Below are positions 2,191-17,890 of a stretch of DNA of 17,890 bases, one piece after another. The translations under genes were made by a program, and so were the position numbers. The stretch's first letter is position 1. Each line of letters starts with the position of its first letter. The stretch is from Candidatus Fermentibacterales bacterium (lineage in GTDB: Bacteria > Fermentibacterota > Fermentibacteria > Fermentibacterales > JAFGKQ01), in the NCBI GenBank assembly GCA_016928495.1, contig JAFGKQ010000237.1, positions 1-17,890 on the forward strand, in the 5' to 3' direction. The notes beneath the pieces were generated by a model. It was not told the DNA's origin. It did no database searches and saw only the letters and a list, made by a program, of their open reading frames with translations.

Positions 2191-2697
2191 CTAGGCTCTC
2201 CCCGGCAGACCGAACCTGTTCACGCACGTGTGGCAGATCGGGGCTTCCCGGTTCTTCTCGAAGTAGTCCTGGTGGTACTCCTCCGCCCTCCAGAAGGCAC
2301 CCGCAGGGCTCAACTCGGTGACAACGTCGAAGCCCTTTCCTCTCAGGACAGCTATCAGCCTCTCGGCTGCCCCCTTCTGGCCCTCGTCGAAGTAGAAGAC
2401 CGCCGACCTGTACTGCTTGCCGACGTCAGCGCCCTGCCGGTCCCTCTGAGTCGGGTCGTGTATCTCGAAGAACCTTCTCACCAGCTGCTCGAAGCTGAGC
2501 GTCTCGGGATCGAACGTGATCTCGACGGCCTCGGCGTGGCCCGTGCTGCCGCTACAGACCTGCTCGTAGGTCGGCTGCGGCACGCTCCCGCCGCTATAGC
2601 CCACCTGAGTGGAAACGACGCCCGGTAGGGTCTTCAGGCGGTACTCCACACCCCAGAAGCAGCCGCCCGCGAGTATAGCCTTCTCTTGCTTGGCCAT
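2191..2697 (-). CDS. msrA: Peptide-methionine (S)-S-oxide reductase MsrA
   Basis: Reduces the S epimer of methionine sulfoxide in proteins, using a nucleophilic cysteine that is recycled by thioredoxin. The 168-residue product has the catalytic signature GGCFWG (Cys13), the VGYSGG segment, YEQVCSGSTGHAEAVEI, the FFEIHDPTQRDRQGADVGKQYRS core, and AEEYHQDYFEKN. Two further cysteines, C155 and C158 near the C-terminus, are placed to serve as resolving cysteines. The nucleophile is Cys, not selenocysteine. The start follows AGGGAG at about 7 bases; no signal peptide, so cytoplasmic. It lies 87 bases downstream of msrB on the same strand, so the two probably form one transcript that repairs both epimers. 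Confidence 0.97.
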   Translation of the reverse strand: MAKQEKAILAGGCFWGVEYRLKTLPGVVSTQVGYSGGSVPQPTYEQVCSGSTGHAEAVEITFDPETLSFEQLVRRFFEIHDPTQRDRQGADVGKQYRSAVFYFDEGQKGAAERLIAVLRGKGFDVVTELSPAGAFWRAEEYHQDYFEKNREAPICHTCVNRFGLPGRA

Positions 2698-2728
2698 GCA
2701 CGGCTCCCTTGCCTGAACGGCGGTGAGA

Positions 2729-2759
2729 GCCCGCCCCAAAGGGGAGACGGGCATGCCCG
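2729..2759 (-). promoter_or_regulatory. Two mutually exclusive hairpins between msrB and msrA
   Basis: A stem-loop pairs GCCCG at 2729-2733 with CGGGC at 2748-2752, enclosing CCCC-AAA-GGGG. The same CGGGC is also half of a perfect 12-base palindrome, CGGGCATGCCCG at 2748-2759. The RNA can form only one of the two. Neither is followed by a U-tract, so this is not an obvious terminator; it could tune expression or RNA processing between the two genes. Chance in GC-rich DNA is possible. Confidence 0.3.
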
Positions 2760-2784: not shown

Positions 2785-3147
2785 CTATACGGCCGGCTCG
2801 AAGTCCAGGGAGAGCGAGTTCACGCAGTGTCTGGTGTTCTTCGGCGTGAAGCCCTCTCCGGTGAACACATGCCCGAGATGCGCGCCGCAGGAAGCGCAGA
2901 CGATCTCGGTACGGATCCCATCGGTCTCGGGCATTCTCAGCACGGCTCCGGGGATCTCGGCATCGAAGCTGGGCCAGCCGATGGTCGACCGGAACTTGGC
3001 CTGAGAGTCGTACAGAGCTGCCCCGCACCGTCTGCAACGGTACAGGCCTCGGCGGAAATAGTTGTGGTATTTCCCGCTGAAGGGCAGCTCCGTGCCCTTG
3101 TACACGATGATACGGGTTTCCTCCAGGGTTAGGTGCCTGTGGGGCAT
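2785..3147 (-). CDS. msrB: Peptide-methionine (R)-S-oxide reductase MsrB
   Basis: Reduces the R epimer of methionine sulfoxide. The 120-residue SelR domain is complete: zinc-binding pairs CRRC (C38, C41) and CASC (C84, C87), GWPSF at 57-61, HLGHVF at 90-95, and the catalytic RHCVNS with Cys108. It is slightly shorter than usual, with a compact N-terminus and no signal peptide, so cytoplasmic. The ATG is preceded by a strong GGAGGT at about 6 bases. It is the first gene of the msrB-msrA pair. The 165 bases upstream (to the next gene end) hold no promoter I would trust; oxidative-stress control is known for the family but is not visible here. Confidence 0.97.
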   Translation of the reverse strand: MPHRHLTLEETRIIVYKGTELPFSGKYHNYFRRGLYRCRRCGAALYDSQAKFRSTIGWPSFDAEIPGAVLRMPETDGIRTEIVCASCGAHLGHVFTGEGFTPKNTRHCVNSLSLDFEPAV

Positions 3148-3312: not shown

Positions 3313-4092
3313 TCAGGAGGCGGGCCCGGGGAAGGCAAGCAGCTTGATGCGCGGCCAGGTCCCGGGTATCAGGGCCGATCCGGCAGGATCGATCCTGTAG
3401 ATCAGCCCGTTGGGGTTGTCGGCTGCCCATAGCATGCCTTCGGGATCGATCGCCAGGCCGGTCGCGCAGGGAACCAGAGACCTGTCTATGGCATCCACCT
3501 GCTGCCCGCTCTGGTCGTAGCGTATTATGCTGTTCGCTGCGTTGTCGCAGCCCGCCCAGACATCGCCCTCGTCGAAGGCGATGTCGTGGACCTGGACGGC
3601 TCCCGGCATCTCGCCGATGTAGTCCTCCAGGCTATCCGCCCAGGCGTATTGGAGCATGTCGCAGAAGAGGGCGGTCTGGCTGGCCAGGTAGAGCGTGTTG
3701 TCGAAGCAGGCCAATCCCTTCGCCGAAGGGATGCCCTGGCCTCAACACAGGTCGATGATGTCGATCAGGGCACCCGTCCATGCGTCGTGCATCATGAAGT
3801 AGGAGTCGGGGCCTCCATACTTGAGCCAGGCGACGAAGAGAGTATCGTTGCTGATGGCGAGCCCGTAGCACTCGTACCCGGTGATGTAGGAGAGGCTCAG
3901 GGTGTTGACTATGCCGCCGGAGGTGGGATCGATCACGAAGACGGTTTGCTCATCGGTGTCCAGGGCCCAGAGCAGGTCCTGCCCGAACGCCAGGCCGCTG
4001 ATGGATAACGCGGGTGAAGCGAGCGTATCCACAACGCTTGCGGCGGAGGCCAGAGCGACCACTACCGGAAGCACGGCCAGGACTGGTCTCAT
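3313..4092 (-). CDS. Exported beta-propeller protein with in-frame TGA at codon 117 (candidate selenoprotein or nonsense mutant)
   Basis: A 260-codon frame, open except for one TGA at 3742-3744. Signal peptide at residues 1 to about 18 (RPVLAVLPVVVALASAAS). Five repeats of roughly 40-45 residues follow, each opening with GLA or DIA: GLAFGQDLLWALD, GLAISNDTLFVAW, GLACFDNTLYLAS, DIAFDEGDVWAGC, GLAIDPEGMLWAAD. This is a beta-propeller, likely with further strands closing it. The TGA lies in the linker between repeats 2 and 3 (DLC, TGA, GQGIPSAKGLA), directly after Cys116. The repeat pattern continues in the same frame after it, so there is no frameshift. A stem-loop begins at the base after the TGA (see 3709-3744). 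ATG has AGGA about 6 bases upstream. Readthrough gives 259 residues; termination gives a 116-residue fragment. TGG to TGA mutation, sequencing error and selenocysteine are all open. Confidence 0.7.
3709..3744 (-). promoter_or_regulatory. SECIS-like stem-loop immediately after the in-frame UGA
   Basis: Read on the coding (minus) strand, UGA (3744-3742) is followed by GGCCA, a 4-base bulge GGGC, then AUCCCUUC, a GGC loop, GAAGGGAU and UGGCC. The 8-bp upper stem and 5-bp lower stem are both perfectly complementary. The loop starts with G and lies 17 bases after the UGA. This matches the bacterial SECIS consensus as I recall it (a hairpin close behind the UGA, apical loop about 16-37 bases away with a G in the first two loop positions). 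No U-tract follows, so it is not a typical terminator. Function is inferred only. Confidence 0.5.
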
Positions 4093-4211: not shown

Positions 4212-4261
4212 CAGGCAGAACGGAGCCGTAGCAGTTGATACTCATCTGAATGGAGATAGCA

Positions 4262-5086
4262 GTGACTAAACGGACAAGTAAGTTAAGTTTGTTTAACTAC
4301 GTCCCCGTCCCCGCAGGGCTGGCGCTGTTCGAGCTGGTGGGGTTCTCTCCGGGCGGACGGTTCCTGGCGTGGGAGCAGTACGGCATCCAGGACGGGAGCG
4401 GCTTCCCGTTCTGCGAGATCAGCGTGATGGACGTCGCCTCCTGCTCGGTCCTGGCAAGGCACTCGGAGCTCTACAGGTTCGATGAGCAGGAGTTCTTCTC
4501 CATGGATGTCCCCGTGGAGTGGGATGCCGTGCTCGACACGGAGGAGAGAGAGCAGCGGTTCTGGGAGGAGTACGCGAGGCCCCTGGCCAGGCAGGAGCTG
4601 CAGCCTCTCCTGGACAGCCTGGGAATCGTGGAGGGCAACACGGGCATGCACCTGGTGCACCATCCGGCATGCGATCTCACGGACATGGCGGCCCCGGTGA
4701 GGTTCACTCCCGGCCTCGCGGGGCCCGGATTCCACAGCGGTCCGGTCTACGAGCTGCTGCTCGAGCAACCCTCCGTGGAGGACCCCGGCATCGCCATGTG
4801 GGAGCACGGCTTCATGGCGGAGCCCAGCTGCCTGCTGCTCGCGCTCTCCGAGCAGGACTCGGACAGCCTCGTCATCCTGGTGGACGAGACCGGCGGATGG
4901 GTCGATCCCCAGAGGTGGGCCTACGACTTCTCCATACGGGACGTGTTCGTCTACCGCGACGGCTGGATCGCGGTCGTGCTGCGCATCAGCGTTCCGGGCT
5001 TCGAGGGGCCGGACATCGAGTACAGGGTGGTAACCGCCAGGATACCGGACATGAGCCCGGGCTACTGGTACTCGAGCACCGGGTAG
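4262..5086 (+). CDS. DUF2259-like (COG5497-type) predicted secreted protein, odd N-terminus
   Basis: The FSPGGRFLAWEQYGIQDGSGFPFCEISVMDV segment (given here in parts: FSPGGRFLAWEQYG, then IQDGSGFPFCEISVMDV) is the hallmark of DUF2259 proteins, and the C-terminal SIRDVFVYRDGWIAVVLRIS, then FEGPDIEYRVVTA, also fits. Function of the family is unknown to me. Family members are normally exported, but here residues before LALFELVGFSP are polar (TKRTSKLSLFNYVPVPAG) and do not form a convincing signal peptide. I chose GTG 4262 because GGAG lies 6 bases before it; ATG 4250 is in frame but has no ribosome site. The first 40 bases are AT-rich, unlike the rest of the gene, and contain an inverted repeat. 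The 5' end may have been altered or acquired. Divergent from the beta-propeller gene. Confidence 0.65.
   Translation: MTKRTSKLSLFNYVPVPAGLALFELVGFSPGGRFLAWEQYGIQDGSGFPFCEISVMDVASCSVLARHSELYRFDEQEFFSMDVPVEWDAVLDTEEREQRFWEEYARPLARQELQPLLDSLGIVEGNTGMHLVHHPACDLTDMAAPVRFTPGLAGPGFHSGPVYELLLEQPSVEDPGIAMWEHGFMAEPSCLLLALSEQDSDSLVILVDETGGWVDPQRWAYDFSIRDVFVYRDGWIAVVLRISVPGFEGPDIEYRVVTARIPDMSPGYWYSSTG
4281..4298. repeat. AT-rich inverted repeat in the start region of the DUF2259-like gene
   Basis: AGTTAA and TTAACT are perfect inverted copies separated by GTTTGT. They stand out because the surroundings are strongly GC-rich. It could be an operator or a relic of an insertion; it falls inside the predicted coding region. 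Confidence 0.35.
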
Positions 5087-11694: not shown

Positions 11695-11815
11695 GGAATG
11701 CGCGGAATAGTGATAGCCAGGGGCTGACGGGCTTCCCCATGGCCCCGCCAATCATCATCTTGCGGGTCGAGAGCCGCGTCTTTCTCGGGCCATGGCCCTG
11801 GAGAGGAAAAGGGAA

Positions 11816-12787
11816 ATGCTGCCACTGCTGCTCCCCGTCCTGATGGACACCGTGATCTGCGAGCCGGACTACAACGTGGTAAGGGTGCACGAGCTCGGCG
11901 TGGTCGTCTTCCGCGAGGGTTGCGACGCGGCAGCCCGGGGAGCCCCGGAGTGGGGAGATGCCAACGTCTATCTTCCGGAGGAGGACAGGGCGCCGATCGT
12001 CTTCTTCCACGGGATCCCGTTCACCGGGGACTTCAGAGTGGAGGCTCCCGGAGGCAGCCTGACGGCCATCTGGCCGGAGCCCTCCCGGACAGTGATCGCC
12101 AGCTCTGCAGACAGCACGAACCCGATGCCGGTCTTCTCCGCGACATGGCAGGGCATCGAGGCCGGCCTGCTCTTCGAGCAGGGCTACGTCCCGGTCACGC
12201 CATGTCCCAACGATCTGCCCTTCGCATGGGCTGTTTCGATCTGGCGACAGGTGCCAGCCCTTCCCCTGCGAGCCTCGGACTCCTCCTGGACCGAGATGTT
12301 CATCTACTACGAAGCCAACGTGGGCCCGTTCTTCAGGGAGCTGGCAGCAGGCGCCGGGGAGAAGGACTTCGACATCCTCGACTACTACAGGGGAGAGGCC
12401 CTGCTCTTCCATCCTCCGGGGCGGGACTGGCCCAAGCCGGCAGACATCCTGGTGTCGCGCGTCTCGGTACTCGACGGGACGATATCCATGAGAGGGACCG
12501 GGCCACAGACCTACGACGAGATGAGCGTGATCGAGGAGCTCCTCAGATGGTCTCTGAGCGAGATCGAGCCCGAGGAGGCGCAGGCCTTCTGGCAGACATG
12601 GGAGGAGTCGGTCTGCGATCCCTGGGCAGAGGACGGCTGGCTGCTCTTCCCTCTCCCGCAGGACATGGTCTGGGGGATGACGACGATCGAGCTGACCACC
12701 GAGCAGGCCGGGAGAGTCGAATACCACAGGCTGGTGCTCGGTCTGGTGTCTCCGGGTCTCGAGCGCTTCCCGGAGGCTCTGCAGTGA
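11816..12787 (+). CDS. 'VHEWG'-family exported protein of unknown function, paralogue A
   Basis: 323 residues, paralogous to the product of 13229-14188. The ATG was chosen because its N-terminus MLPLLLPVLMDTV lines up with MLPFMFPFIADTV of the paralogue, and GAGAGGAAAAGGG lies just upstream; an in-frame ATG at 11792 is less likely. The N-terminus is a short hydrophobic export-like signal without basic residues. Shared blocks: NVVRVHELGVVVFRE, APIVFFHGIPFTGDF, EAPGGSLTAIWP, WRQVPAL, WTEMFIYYEA, GEALLFHP, WQTWEESV, AEDGWLLFPLP and TIELTTEQ...YHRLVLGL. No enzyme motif I know. Its TGA overlaps the GTG start of the cupin by four bases, so the two are probably translationally coupled. Confidence 0.75.
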   Translation: MLPLLLPVLMDTVICEPDYNVVRVHELGVVVFREGCDAAARGAPEWGDANVYLPEEDRAPIVFFHGIPFTGDFRVEAPGGSLTAIWPEPSRTVIASSADSTNPMPVFSATWQGIEAGLLFEQGYVPVTPCPNDLPFAWAVSIWRQVPALPLRASDSSWTEMFIYYEANVGPFFRELAAGAGEKDFDILDYYRGEALLFHPPGRDWPKPADILVSRVSVLDGTISMRGTGPQTYDEMSVIEELLRWSLSEIEPEEAQAFWQTWEESVCDPWAEDGWLLFPLPQDMVWGMTTIELTTEQAGRVEYHRLVLGLVSPGLERFPEALQ

Positions 12788-13228: not shown

Positions 13229-14188
13229 ATGCTGCCCTTCATGTTCCCTTTCATTGCCGACACGGTAGCAGTCCCCTACGACGACAACGCTATCAAGGTC
13301 CACGAGTGGGGCGTCGTGGAGTTCCAGGAGGCCGGGCTCACCGCCATTGGCGCCCACTGGGGAGAGCTGGGGCCCGACGGCATCCTCTACGACTACTTCC
13401 CCGACGAGGTCGAGGCCCCCGTTGTCTGGTTCTATGGTCCCGACTTCACGGGGAGCCTCAGCATCGAGGTCTCGGGCGGCAGGATCACGGAAGCATACCC
13501 CGCTCCGGATGTCGAAGACCTTGTCGAGATGCCCCCGCCCTTCGGCTCCTCGCTTCCACCCGTTTCACACAGGATGGAGTGGACCGGTCTCAGCTTCGGA
13601 AGCGGCACGGCTGCCGTGGAGCAGGAAGAGCTAACGAGGCGGGCCGGCTTCGGTGAGACCTGCTGGGGCTGGGCGGCCGGCTACTGGAGGGATGTCCCGG
13701 CGCTTTCCGTTCAGAGGCAATCCGACGGGTGGACGGACGGCTTCATCTACTACGAGTGCACGGCCTCTCAGGCTCTGTCAGACCTCGACTGGACGCTCGA
13801 CAGCCTTCGACCGGCCTACGGGCAGGCGCTGCTGTTCGGCCCGGGCGAGGGGGACAGCCTCAGGGCAGCCCTGGTCGGCGTTGGCGGCTCTCTCGAGCTG
13901 ATCCGGGGCGATCTGCAGGATGGCCCGATCAGGTCCGTCATCTGCGGCTGGGGAGGCAACCTGCTCGACTCCCGGGAGGTCTCCGCCATCTGGAACACCT
14001 GGAAGCCCAGGATAAGGGCAAGGATAGCCGAGGACGGGCAACCCATCCTGCTGTTCGCCCTGCCCCCGGACCTCGCCGCCCTGATCAGCACGATAGAGCT
14101 TACCGTCGATCAGGGCTACGAGGTAAGCGTCCAGAGGCTGTTCCTGGGTCTGATGCCGGTTGCCGGAATGGCCTGGCCGTGTGACTGA
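13229..14188 (+). CDS. 'VHEWG'-family exported protein of unknown function, paralogue B
   Basis: 319 residues; GGGGAGGAGG lies 5 bases before the ATG. Same architecture as paralogue A: short hydrophobic start MLPFMFPFIADTV, then NAIKVHEWGVVEFQE, APVVWFYGPDFTGSL, EVSGGRITEAYP, MEWTGLSFG, YWRDVPAL, WTDGFIYYEC, GQALLFGP, WNTWKPRI, AEDGQPILLFALP and STIELTVDQ...VQRLFLGL. Identity is clearly that of an old duplication, not recent. The VHEWG/VHELG block near residue 25 is the best conserved. It follows the cupin after 82 bases. No catalytic triad or cofactor site recognised. Confidence 0.75.
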   Translation: MLPFMFPFIADTVAVPYDDNAIKVHEWGVVEFQEAGLTAIGAHWGELGPDGILYDYFPDEVEAPVVWFYGPDFTGSLSIEVSGGRITEAYPAPDVEDLVEMPPPFGSSLPPVSHRMEWTGLSFGSGTAAVEQEELTRRAGFGETCWGWAAGYWRDVPALSVQRQSDGWTDGFIYYECTASQALSDLDWTLDSLRPAYGQALLFGPGEGDSLRAALVGVGGSLELIRGDLQDGPIRSVICGWGGNLLDSREVSAIWNTWKPRIRARIAEDGQPILLFALPPDLAALISTIELTVDQGYEVSVQRLFLGLMPVAGMAWPCD

Positions 14189-14435: not shown

Positions 14436-15563
14436 TCAGTCCTGGAGCTCCAGCACGTAGAGCTTCTGGTAGCCGGCTTCCGGATCCAGCGAGTAGGCCA
14501 GGATGCCCTGCTCGTCTATGTCTATCTGCCACAGCGGCCCCAGTGGGCCCCGGATGGACGGGATCGTGGCCGTGAAGACCTGATTGCCTTCCATGTCGAA
14601 AACATCGAAGGTGGGGGTTTCCTCGGTTCCTCTCCTGACCCACAGCCTGCCCAGGGCGTCCACGCCCATGGAGTGGATCATCCAGCGATAGGGATCGGGC
14701 TGGTAGTTGAACGGGCCCGACGCCCCCATGTTCTCGGCACGCAGGTTCCAGAAGGCGGCCTCATCAGCCATCTCTTCGTCAGCCTTCCTCACCCTCTCCA
14801 GCTCTCGCGAGATCTCCAGGAAAGCTTCGCCAGAAGCATCGAAGCCGCTCACCTGATAGACCTCTGATGACCTGGGAGCGATGAAGACGTTCCCGTCCCT
14901 GTCGGAGGCCCAGGTGCGGGCAAAGTACGAGCCCTCAATCAGCGGCGTGATGTCCCGGAAGTCCCAGACGAACGAGCTCTCCCAGAGGGTGTCGAAAGGC
15001 TCCGCCCGGTCCGCCTCGTACCTGCCGACCACGGCCGTCACCACCAGTCCCTGCTCGCAGAAGTCGAAGCAGTTCTGCGTCCCGACGTAGGTGTTGCCCT
15101 CCGACTCGGTGAGCCACAGGACCGGCTCGTTGGTCATCTCCGCGGAGATGCCCTGCCACCGGCCTTCGCTATCGAAGGTCTGCATGCCTCCCGTGTAGAG
15201 GTCGAGCACGGCAACCCTGCCGTCACCAAGGCGGACCATGGAATGAGGGTTGCTGAGCTCGCCCGGACCGCTGCCGCGACGCCCGTACTGCCGGACGAAC
15301 TCCCCCTCGGGGGTGAACTCGCGCACGCAGCAGTTGGGCCTGTCGAGCACGAGGATGCTGCCATCGATCGTGTGCCCCGTAGCCTCGATCGACGCGAAGA
15401 CGTAGGCCGAGTCCCCGATCTCGACTCCGATCGAGTCGACCGCCACGATCGTCCTCCCGGGGATGTCCGCATCAGCCGGGCACTCCCCGCCCGGTCCCTG
15501 CCCGCATGCGGCGCTCAGAAGACAGCCCGCTACCAGAATCCGGCCAGTCAGACTCATCTGCAT
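14436..15563 (-). CDS. 6-bladed beta-propeller lipoprotein
   Basis: 375 residues. Signal sequence with a lipobox-like SAAC (Cys about residue 20), so probably a lipoprotein. Repeats follow: DGSILVLDRPNCCVREFTPEGEFVRQYG with GRRGSGPGELSNPHSM, LGDGRVAVLDLYTGGMQTFDSEG, DRDGNVFIAPRSSEVYQVSGF, ALGRLWVRRGTEETPTFDVFD, and a closing IDIDEQGILAYSL...YQKLYVLEL. The GSGPGEL..P segment is a signature of the 6-bladed beta-propeller group common in Bacteroidetes and related phyla (BF-type DUF5128 relatives). Clearly paralogous to the gene at 17105-17890: both carry FVAPRS/FIAPRS, an ERE.ERVRK..EEM helix and GYQKxYxLEL. ATG follows AAGGCGGG. It lies 46 bases after the antiporter. Confidence 0.85.
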   Translation of the reverse strand: MQMSLTGRILVAGCLLSAACGQGPGGECPADADIPGRTIVAVDSIGVEIGDSAYVFASIEATGHTIDGSILVLDRPNCCVREFTPEGEFVRQYGRRGSGPGELSNPHSMVRLGDGRVAVLDLYTGGMQTFDSEGRWQGISAEMTNEPVLWLTESEGNTYVGTQNCFDFCEQGLVVTAVVGRYEADRAEPFDTLWESSFVWDFRDITPLIEGSYFARTWASDRDGNVFIAPRSSEVYQVSGFDASGEAFLEISRELERVRKADEEMADEAAFWNLRAENMGASGPFNYQPDPYRWMIHSMGVDALGRLWVRRGTEETPTFDVFDMEGNQVFTATIPSIRGPLGPLWQIDIDEQGILAYSLDPEAGYQKLYVLELQD

Positions 15564-15609
15564 CCCGCCTTCTTGCTTCGGGAAGAGCCTGCCAGGGGCA
15601 ACACTCCTC

Positions 15610-16908
15610 CTAGGCCCTCCTGCCCGGGGGTCTCCCCCTGCCGGCAATGGCAACCAGCAGCGGCGGAGTAATGACCGCAGTCACGAGGATCATCATCATC
15701 ACGGCCCCCATGTCTGCCCCGCTTATCACGCCCTGGACCAGAGCCATGCTCGCGGCAACCAGCCCCACTTCCTGCCTCGCGAGCATCCCCGCCCCTATGA
15801 TGCCCGAGGACCTCAGGTCGAAGCCGGACGCCCTGGCCGGGATCATGCAGCCCAGGAACTTGCCTACGACGGCCAGAAGGCTGAAGACCACCGCCAGAAC
15901 CAGCACGGAGCCGAACGCACGCACGTCCACCATCATCCCGGTCGCGCAGAAGAAGACCGGCACGAGCAGCTCGCGCACCACCGTGAGCTGCTCCGTTATC
16001 CTGTGCGCCGTCCTCGTCCCGGACAGACCCAGTCCCATGACGTAGGCGCCAACCACCAGCGCCAGCCCGGCGGCCTCCGCCACGCCGGCCGCCAGCAGCC
16101 CCAGGGCAAGAGCAACGACTGCCTGGGCAGGCTCACTTCCCGCCTTGCCCAGCAACCTGACTATCAGCCCCCTCAGGGAGTAGCTGAGGAACAGCAGGGC
16201 AGCGAAGAAGCCGAACCCTCTCAGGGCGATCAGCCCCACGAGGCCCGCCGAGAGACCGCGTCCCGACGAGCTGCTGGTTCCGGCGACGCCGAAGACGATG
16301 CTCAGGGCAACCAGCCCCAGTACATCGTCTATCACCGCGGCGGACAGGATGGTGGAGCCCTCGGGGCTGTTCAGCCGCCTGATGTCTCTCAGTATCCGCA
16401 CTGTCAGACCTATGGACGTCGCCGTAGAGACGGCACCCATCGCCAGAGCCCTGGGGGAGGTGATGGGGTCACCGGTTGCTAGTGCCACCGCGGCGGCTCC
16501 GGCCACGAATCCACCCACGGCACCGCCGAGCCCGGCAGCGAGCCCCTTGGGCGCGAATCGCACGAAGCGCCTGAGGTCGGTCTCGAGGCCTGCGCTGAAA
16601 AGCAGGGTGACGACACCCGTGACGGTGATCGCGTGCAGTATGCCCTCGTTGAACATCCCGTCCGGGCCGGACAGGAAGAGGGGGCCGAGGCCTGGAACAC
16701 GCAGCGTCCCGAGCAGCGGCAGCCCGAGAGACCAGGCTCCCGTGCTGAGCCCCCCCAGGGCGTAGGGCCCGATGATCATCCCCGCAATCATCTCGCCGAG
16801 CACCGGAGGCTGTCTCAGGAGCTTCTGGAACACTCTGCCGGACACCTTGGCTACCATGATTATGGCAGCCAGCTCGATCACGAACCGGACCTCGACGGTG
16901 TTCACCAT
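15610..16908 (-). CDS. CPA2-family monovalent cation/proton antiporter (Kef/NapA-type)
   Basis: Exchanges Na+ or K+ for H+ across the inner membrane. 432 residues of near-continuous membrane helices, about 12. Family features: PPVLGEMIAGMIIGPYALG near the start, LLFSAGLETDLRRFVR, STATSIGLTVRILRDIRRL, and VIDDVLGLVALSIV with the two adjacent Asp residues typical of electrogenic CPA2 transporters. The C-terminus ends at a basic GRGRPPGRRA, with no RCK/TrkA-N domain, so it resembles NapA-like members rather than full Kef channels. The ATG follows GGAG at 4 bases; an upstream in-frame start at 16965 gives an N-terminus without family similarity. It lies between two paralogous beta-propeller genes on the same strand. 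Regulation is not visible. Confidence 0.92.
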   Translation of the reverse strand: MVNTVEVRFVIELAAIIMVAKVSGRVFQKLLRQPPVLGEMIAGMIIGPYALGGLSTGAWSLGLPLLGTLRVPGLGPLFLSGPDGMFNEGILHAITVTGVVTLLFSAGLETDLRRFVRFAPKGLAAGLGGAVGGFVAGAAAVALATGDPITSPRALAMGAVSTATSIGLTVRILRDIRRLNSPEGSTILSAAVIDDVLGLVALSIVFGVAGTSSSSGRGLSAGLVGLIALRGFGFFAALLFLSYSLRGLIVRLLGKAGSEPAQAVVALALGLLAAGVAEAAGLALVVGAYVMGLGLSGTRTAHRITEQLTVVRELLVPVFFCATGMMVDVRAFGSVLVLAVVFSLLAVVGKFLGCMIPARASGFDLRSSGIIGAGMLARQEVGLVAASMALVQGVISGADMGAVMMMILVTAVITPPLLVAIAGRGRPPGRRA

Positions 16909-17104: not shown

Positions 17105-17890
17105 TCAGAGGTCGCTCCGAGCGGGCACCTCTCCCGTCCGTAGCTCCAGCAGGTAGACCTTCTGGTATCCCTCCGCAGGGTCCTCCGCCCAGGCCAGGAT
17201 CCCCGGCTCCCCCACATGGAACCTCCAGCTTGCCCCGTCGGGAGGAGAGTGGTCCAGAGCAACGTGGAATGCCAGCTCGCCGCTGCGGTCGTAGACATCG
17301 AAGAAGGGATCGGTCACCCCGCCCCGCAGGACCCACAGGTTGCCGCTGTTATCGACCTCGAGGCCCCGGATCATCGGCCTGTAGGGATCCGGGCTCATGG
17401 CCGCCTGCGACTCGATGCCCATCGCCGAGGCCTTCATCCGCAGGAGCATCTCCTCGGTCTCCATCTCCTCCGCAGACCGCCGGACCCTGCCCATCTCCCT
17501 CTCGATCTCCAGGATCGGGGTACCGTCATCGGCCCATGCGTAGACGAGATACTCGTCCGTGGACCTCGGGGCAACGAACACGCGGCCGTCGAGACCGGTC
17601 GCAATGTCGTAGCCATACCAGGTCTTGCTGATAGCCTCGGTGAGGTCCGAGTAGTCGATCTCGAAGCTGTCCTCGTAGTAGACCGTCAGCGGCTCCTCAT
17701 CCTCGAAGCCCTTTCTTCCGAACTCGACCGCTCCGAAGGGGACGTCGCCGCGCACCTCGAGGCCTATCTGCTTGTATACGTAGGTGTCGCCATAGCCCCC
17801 CTCGAGATTGGTCGGGGGCTGTCCCCCACTGGGATAGGAACCCAGCCAGTCGCCAGTCGCGTAGTCGAACACATGCAGCCCGAGCACTCC
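17105..17890 (-). CDS. 6-bladed beta-propeller protein (partial, N-terminus outside window)
   Basis: The frame is open to the window edge, so the first residues and any signal are missing; about 261 residues remain. Blades read as LDGRVFVAPRSTDEYLVYAW, NSGNLWVLRGGVTDPFFDVYDRSGELAF and WRFHVGEPGILAWAEDPAEGYQKVYLLEL. Shared with the lipoprotein at 14436-15563: APRS, an EREMGRVRRSAEEME helix, PDPYR.MI, and the GYQKVYLLEL end. This is a paralogous pair. The TGA stop lies 196 bases before the antiporter start, where I see no clear promoter or terminator. Confidence 0.8.
   Translation of the reverse strand, partial: GVLGLHVFDYATGDWLGSYPSGGQPPTNLEGGYGDTYVYKQIGLEVRGDVPFGAVEFGRKGFEDEEPLTVYYEDSFEIDYSDLTEAISKTWYGYDIATGLDGRVFVAPRSTDEYLVYAWADDGTPILEIEREMGRVRRSAEEMETEEMLLRMKASAMGIESQAAMSPDPYRPMIRGLEVDNSGNLWVLRGGVTDPFFDVYDRSGELAFHVALDHSPPDGASWRFHVGEPGILAWAEDPAEGYQKVYLLELRTGEVPARSDL

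Follow-up and report, generated by a model that had tools for sequence, protein, structure and literature searches.

A predicted family of exported beta-propeller selenoproteins in the Fermentibacterota

An open reading frame that resembles an exported beta-propeller but is crossed by a single in-frame TGA raises the question of whether the codon marks a damaged gene or is translated. The gene lies on a contig of 17,890 bases, hereafter the window, from a draft genome of 2.31 Mb that is 81% complete; all sequences used here are genome-assembly data. When TGA is translated as selenocysteine (Sec, U), the gene encodes 259 residues followed by a final TGA, and the sole internal TGA is codon 117, directly after Cys116 (Table 1). 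The first-pass annotation had described a frame that is intact around this codon, with the propeller pattern running on without a frame change, and the translation agrees on each point. It had also proposed that the UGA may be read as Sec, with a simple TGG to TGA mutation as a strong rival.

Table 1. Coordinates of the selenoprotein gene, its elements and two neighboring genes in the window
Feature	Position	Strand	Basis
Selenoprotein gene, predicted exported five-bladed beta-propeller, 259 residues	3313..4092	minus	Translation, homologues, structure model
Probable signal peptide MRPVLAVLPVVVALASA	4042..4092	minus	Sequence; N-termini of homologues also hydrophobic
Predicted beta-propeller domain, residues 19-235, five four-stranded blades, N-terminal strand closing	3388..4038	minus	Structure model and matches
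Cys116, invariant partner of Sec	3745..3747	minus	Cys in 116/116 members
UGA codon 117, read as selenocysteine	3742..3744	minus	Conserved alignment column
Whole hairpin including window-specific outer 5-bp stem	3709..3741	minus	Folding; outer stem not conserved
bSECIS core: 8-bp stem, GGC loop 3722-3724, 17 nt after UGA	3714..3732	minus	Folding and covariation
C-terminal TWPRIKLL, candidate surface-sorting or anchoring tail	3337..3360	minus	TWxxIK motif in members without sorting domain
Terminal stop TGA of selenoprotein gene	3313-3315	minus	Translation
msrB, downstream	2785..3147	minus	SelR domain; context only
msrA, downstream	2191..2754	minus	PMSR domain; context only

Conservation of the UGA codon across the family

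Of 60 genomes searched, the 42 that belong to the same order all yielded homologues, and almost every good match contained exactly one in-frame TGA. These relatives belong to Candidatus Fermentibacteria (Hyd24-12; Aegiribacteria, Sabulitectum) of the phylum Fermentibacterota, and the genome of the window itself carries four such genes (C335, the window; C169, C184 and C285). In total, 120 genes, all from genomes of the one order, have an in-frame TGA in a single alignment column, always after an invariant cysteine (116 of 116 members). The motif is CGGU in 46 genes and CU in most others, while CxGU also occurs. Three further TGAs are present in the alignment: two are at the C-terminal end (L006 and L049) and are likely true stops, and one is in the damaged copy L125 (G003:C7:43772-44497). 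This member has two in-frame TGAs, and its Trp codons are altered; it is apparently decaying, in contrast to the intact members.

Where one draft assembly shows a lone in-frame TGA, the usual interpretation is a TGG to TGA point mutation or a sequencing error that affects an ordinary propeller gene and makes it a pseudogene or an artefact, and the relative L125 does resemble such a decaying copy. This rival is refuted because the TGA column is conserved in 120 genes: across it the homologues keep TGA, not TGG, and none has Trp there. Moreover, the synonymous share of differing codons in 205 moderately diverged gene pairs is 0.602 upstream and 0.599 downstream of the TGA, and the part of the gene after the TGA is therefore under the same constraint as the part before it. 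We give mutation or error practically no credence.

Many family members contain an in-frame TGA, as would be expected if UGA had been reassigned throughout the phylum to an ordinary amino acid such as Trp or Gly. However, all 711 Trp codons in the family genes are TGG, and TGA was found at no conserved Trp column. TAG, TGA and TAA are all used as terminators in the same genes, TGA being the normal terminator of many members, including the window gene. Reassignment to Trp is excluded because Trp is always encoded by TGG and all three stop codons end genes, and the presence of a single TGA in each gene, invariably behind a Cys, likewise argues against a general change of code, whose probability we consider negligible.

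SECIS hairpin and selenocysteine machinery

The hairpin that starts directly 3' of codon 117 consists of an outer stem (GGCCA/UGGCC, 5 bp), a bulge on the 5' side (GGGC) and an inner stem (AUCCCUUC/GAAGGGAU, 8 bp) that carries the loop, a geometry identical to that given in the first-pass annotation. Its folding energy corresponds to z = -3.69 relative to dinucleotide shuffles, none of which (0/200) folded as well. With the criteria for bacterial SECIS elements taken from PMC13188914, such an element was identified in 106 of 116 genes, the window gene included, compared to 53.6 expected when synonymous codons were permuted within each gene. The mean hairpin z was -1.39, and in 94% of genes the native sequence folds more stably than its synonymous shuffles do on average.

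Two classes of hairpin can be distinguished, a main class of 76 genes, in which the loop (GGC or GGU) lies 17 nt from the UGA, and a second class of 42 genes, in which it lies about 3 nt further away. In an analysis of 29 distinct main-class sequences, 95.3% of cells are paired, compared to 37-63% when the partner strand is slid by 1-3 columns, and five of the eight stem pairs show compensatory changes on both sides. The covariation score of this class, 0.399, was reached by none of 500 shuffles, but these ignore relatedness, and for this reason the slide and synonymous-codon controls weigh most. Some compensations alter the amino acid, as in CCU...AAG (Pro, Lys) of the window gene versus CCA...AUG (Pro, Met) of L006. 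The second class covaries as well (GACCGG/CCGGTC, GACCAG/CTGGTC, GACCTG/CAGGTC), with a change from CGG/ACC to CAG/ACT as a further example. Of the hairpin first described in the window, the family keeps the 8-bp stem, with compensatory changes, and the loop, whereas the outer 5-bp stem is not conserved.

The machinery for Sec insertion is encoded in the genome of the window. Matches to SelB (306 bits, above the cut-off) and tRNA-Sec (74 bits) were accompanied by a C-terminal fragment of SelA adjoining selB, which scores below the cut-off because it is truncated at a contig end. Two neighboring selD genes (G000:C329:357-2646) are selenoprotein genes in their own right, with TGA in frame as the codon of the catalytic residue (CAGUAGK and CAGUASK); one of the two reads with an acidic, proline-rich region preceding its N-terminus. 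Strong tRNA-Sec matches were obtained in 36 of the 42 genomes of the order, and the absence of a match in the remaining genomes may reflect incomplete assembly.

Decoding of Sec is often incomplete, and the UGA could instead serve as a programmed stop or a site of leaky readthrough, in which case a truncated propeller would be the main product and some other amino acid would be inserted occasionally. Against this stand the Sec pathway of the genome and a hairpin with bSECIS geometry and a GGC or GGU loop. A chain of 116 residues would, according to the structure model described below, contain only about two of the five blades. Furthermore, the invariant Cys before or near the UGA forms CU and CxxU, which are Sec motifs of known selenoproteins (PMC13188914). 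Such a stop is in our estimation very improbable, though not quite as negligible as a mutation or a change of code. Taken together, the conserved column, the covarying hairpin and the Sec machinery support the original proposal that UGA is read as Sec, and Sec decoding is strongly supported for the family at the level of sequence. Those refuting conditions of the first-pass annotation that were checked here (missing Sec machinery, Trp in the homologues together with an unconserved hairpin) all turned out in favor of Sec. We conclude, with a probability of roughly 0.94, that the window gene encodes a selenoprotein with a propeller fold, in which Sec is inserted at UGA 117 of a five-bladed beta-propeller. 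In the mechanism that we propose, SelB and Sec-tRNA(Sec) would be recruited by the hairpin directly 3' of codon 117 and would insert Sec there.

Fold, export and possible chemistry of the Cys-Sec pair

An AlphaFold2 model (27 members), in which Cys was substituted for Sec, has a pLDDT of 85.9 and a pTM of 0.84. Its strands form five four-stranded blades, the last of which is closed by the N-terminal strand, and the product is predicted with high confidence to fold as a five-bladed beta-propeller. The nearest solved structures are glutaminyl cyclases (Z 21.9-23.8, identity 14-18%), with 3mbr as the top match (Z 23.8, rmsd 2.4 over 211 residues), and the YjiK C-terminal domain also matches (Z 21.5). 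In Pfam the matches are to DUF6923 and, weakly, to SMP-30 and NHL. The blades are alike in sequence profile to these propeller repeats (PknD, Pizza6, Vgb lyase), which differ, however, in that they contain no Sec and in that the solved Pizza6 and PknD structures are six-bladed. In the model, Cys116-Sec117 is located between strands 109-114 and 124-130, in the loop that connects blade 2 (strand D) with blade 3 (strand A). In propellers, inter-blade loops of this kind conventionally mark the face that bears the active site. The Sec would be placed in this loop 1-4 residues after the invariant Cys in all motif variants (CU, CGGU and CxGU, and CPGGU in a second phylum).

The window protein begins with a signal peptide-like sequence, with cleavage placed by eye after ASA, and it is probably exported. 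Most members have an FlgD-like or type IX sorting domain at their C-terminus (NCBIfam, Pfam), which suggests a surface location for the family members. The window protein ends instead in TWPRIKLL, resembling the short TWxxIK tails that are found in members without the FlgD-like sorting domain (L006, L026, L050, L071, L110, L116 and the window gene) and that are perhaps an uncharacterized sorting signal.

Paralogues without the TGA occur in the same phylum. They share the propeller, and some share the C-terminal sorting domain, but they lack Sec and most of them lack the Cys, too: Ser-Gly or a similar pair replaces Cys-Sec in L134, L138, L140, L141 and L143, while L139, L144, L145 and L147 keep a Cys nearby, though not in the Sec column. 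Cys at the Sec column itself was not found among the homologues examined; such Cys forms are a classic mark of selenoprotein families, which lends support where present but is not obligatory. On a tree built without the motif columns, only six changes account for five motif states, with CLCU genes counted as CxGU by the pattern used.

The search for further relatives used an alignment of the CGGU members, and the wider scans covered up to 385 genomes. One genome outside the order (G099; another phylum; 5.0 Mb in one contig) contains three members that carry CPGGU at the same loop; one has about 424 residues, and the other two are far larger. A tRNA-Sec match of 65.8 bits was found in this genome, and in two of the three genes a hairpin with a CGUGA loop lies at about the right distance. 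In other phyla, 11 genomes gave weak matches of partial length that lacked the TGA.

What the Cys-Sec pair does is less certain than its presence. The likeliest chemistry, to which we give about even odds, is that of a redox pair that would cycle via a selenenylsulfide and act on thiols, disulfides or peroxides outside the cytoplasm; the propeller loops would determine which substrate each of the many paralogues accepts. With the same evenly balanced confidence we propose that these phylum-wide, multi-paralogue and surface-sorted exported selenoproteins of the Fermentibacterota and at least one other phylum, with Cys-Sec in an inter-blade loop, are selenium-dependent extracytoplasmic redox enzymes. 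The main rival to redox catalysis is metal binding, because several CU selenoproteins (SaoL, SaoC, HgcA and MbdU) are metal-linked (PMC13188914): the Cys-Sec pair would then coordinate selenium or a soft metal or metalloid (Hg, As, Cu), and the many paralogues per genome could serve sequestration. No conserved metal-resistance neighbors were seen in the few contexts inspected, however, and an invariant pair in an inter-blade loop suits catalysis equally well; a ligand role appears rather unlikely, at about half the weight of redox catalysis.

A third possibility, that the protein is a selenium-dependent relative of the glutaminyl cyclases acting on peptide N-termini, would fit the top fold match, which is to a type II glutaminyl cyclase, and the position of one CGGU member next to a Glu_cyclase_2 gene. 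The type II glutaminyl cyclases (PF05096; 3mbr, 2faw, 3nol) share the five-bladed propeller of about 230 residues, but no Sec has been reported there, and the low identity to the solved structures speaks against this reading. Glu_cyclase_2 (PF05096) did not match the window protein at E 1 or any of the 27 members scanned at E 0.001. Cyclization is not known to need Sec. A cyclase is accordingly improbable, and far less probable than a metal ligand.

Relation to known selenoproteins and genomic context

The 2026 inventory of prokaryotic selenoproteins comprises 119 families, among which no propeller, NHL or DUF6923 family is named or typed in Table 1 of that work (PMC13188914). In NCBIfam 20.0, the window protein has no match and its relatives match only sorting-tail or generic models. 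The first-pass annotation had likewise pointed to no Sec family in a periplasmic or surface propeller. Leaving preprints and most subscription papers aside, we found no relevant published report of selenocysteine in Fermentibacteria or Hyd24-12, and papers combining selenoproteins and propellers were all unrelated. The family shares with prokaryotic CU and CxxU selenoproteins such as SaoL, HgcA and GrdA an in-frame UGA with a bSECIS just 3' of it, a Cys 1 or 3 residues before Sec and a genome with SelB and tRNA-Sec, but those proteins are not propellers (PMC13188914). The exported beta-propeller selenoprotein family is therefore new to the catalogue as a protein family and fold, while the decoding mechanism is standard.

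This adds a sizeable selenoprotein family, with about 120 genes and several per genome, on a fold without a catalogued selenoprotein, and the Fermentibacterota emerge as a phylum unexpectedly rich in selenium. With standard gene calling, the family genes would be split at the UGA, and they are therefore probably annotated as short fragments. If the redox proposal is true, selenium would be used catalytically on a fold distinct from the thioredoxin-like and metal-cofactor settings that are usual for it. The family raises the question of which extracytoplasmic chemistry requires so many selenocysteine propellers.

The msrB and msrA genes beside the window gene hint at oxidative repair. A functional link, suspected from the window, was rejected, as the synteny is not conserved: by tblastn, the homologues inspected had neither gene nearby. 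Elsewhere, CGGU members in two genera adjoin a gene for an M48 peptidase (L158 4714-5649; L159 2322-3305 and 3353-3997), and the L159 member directly follows the glutaminyl cyclase gene, which encodes the closest known fold; both neighbors are absent from the window and for this reason played no part in the main reading.

In the window, the divergent neighbor of the selenoprotein gene (4250-5086, plus strand) encodes a predicted secreted DUF2259 protein. An exported six-bladed propeller with a weak DUF5128 match and a vicinal Cys-Cys (RPNCCVREF), probably a lipoprotein, is encoded at 14436-15653 on the minus strand, and a gene resembling it occupies the far end of the window (17105-17890). Finally, two related-looking genes on the plus strand (11792-12787 and 13229-14188), separated by a cupin-like frame, encode VHELGVV or VHEWGVV near their N-termini and have no Pfam match.
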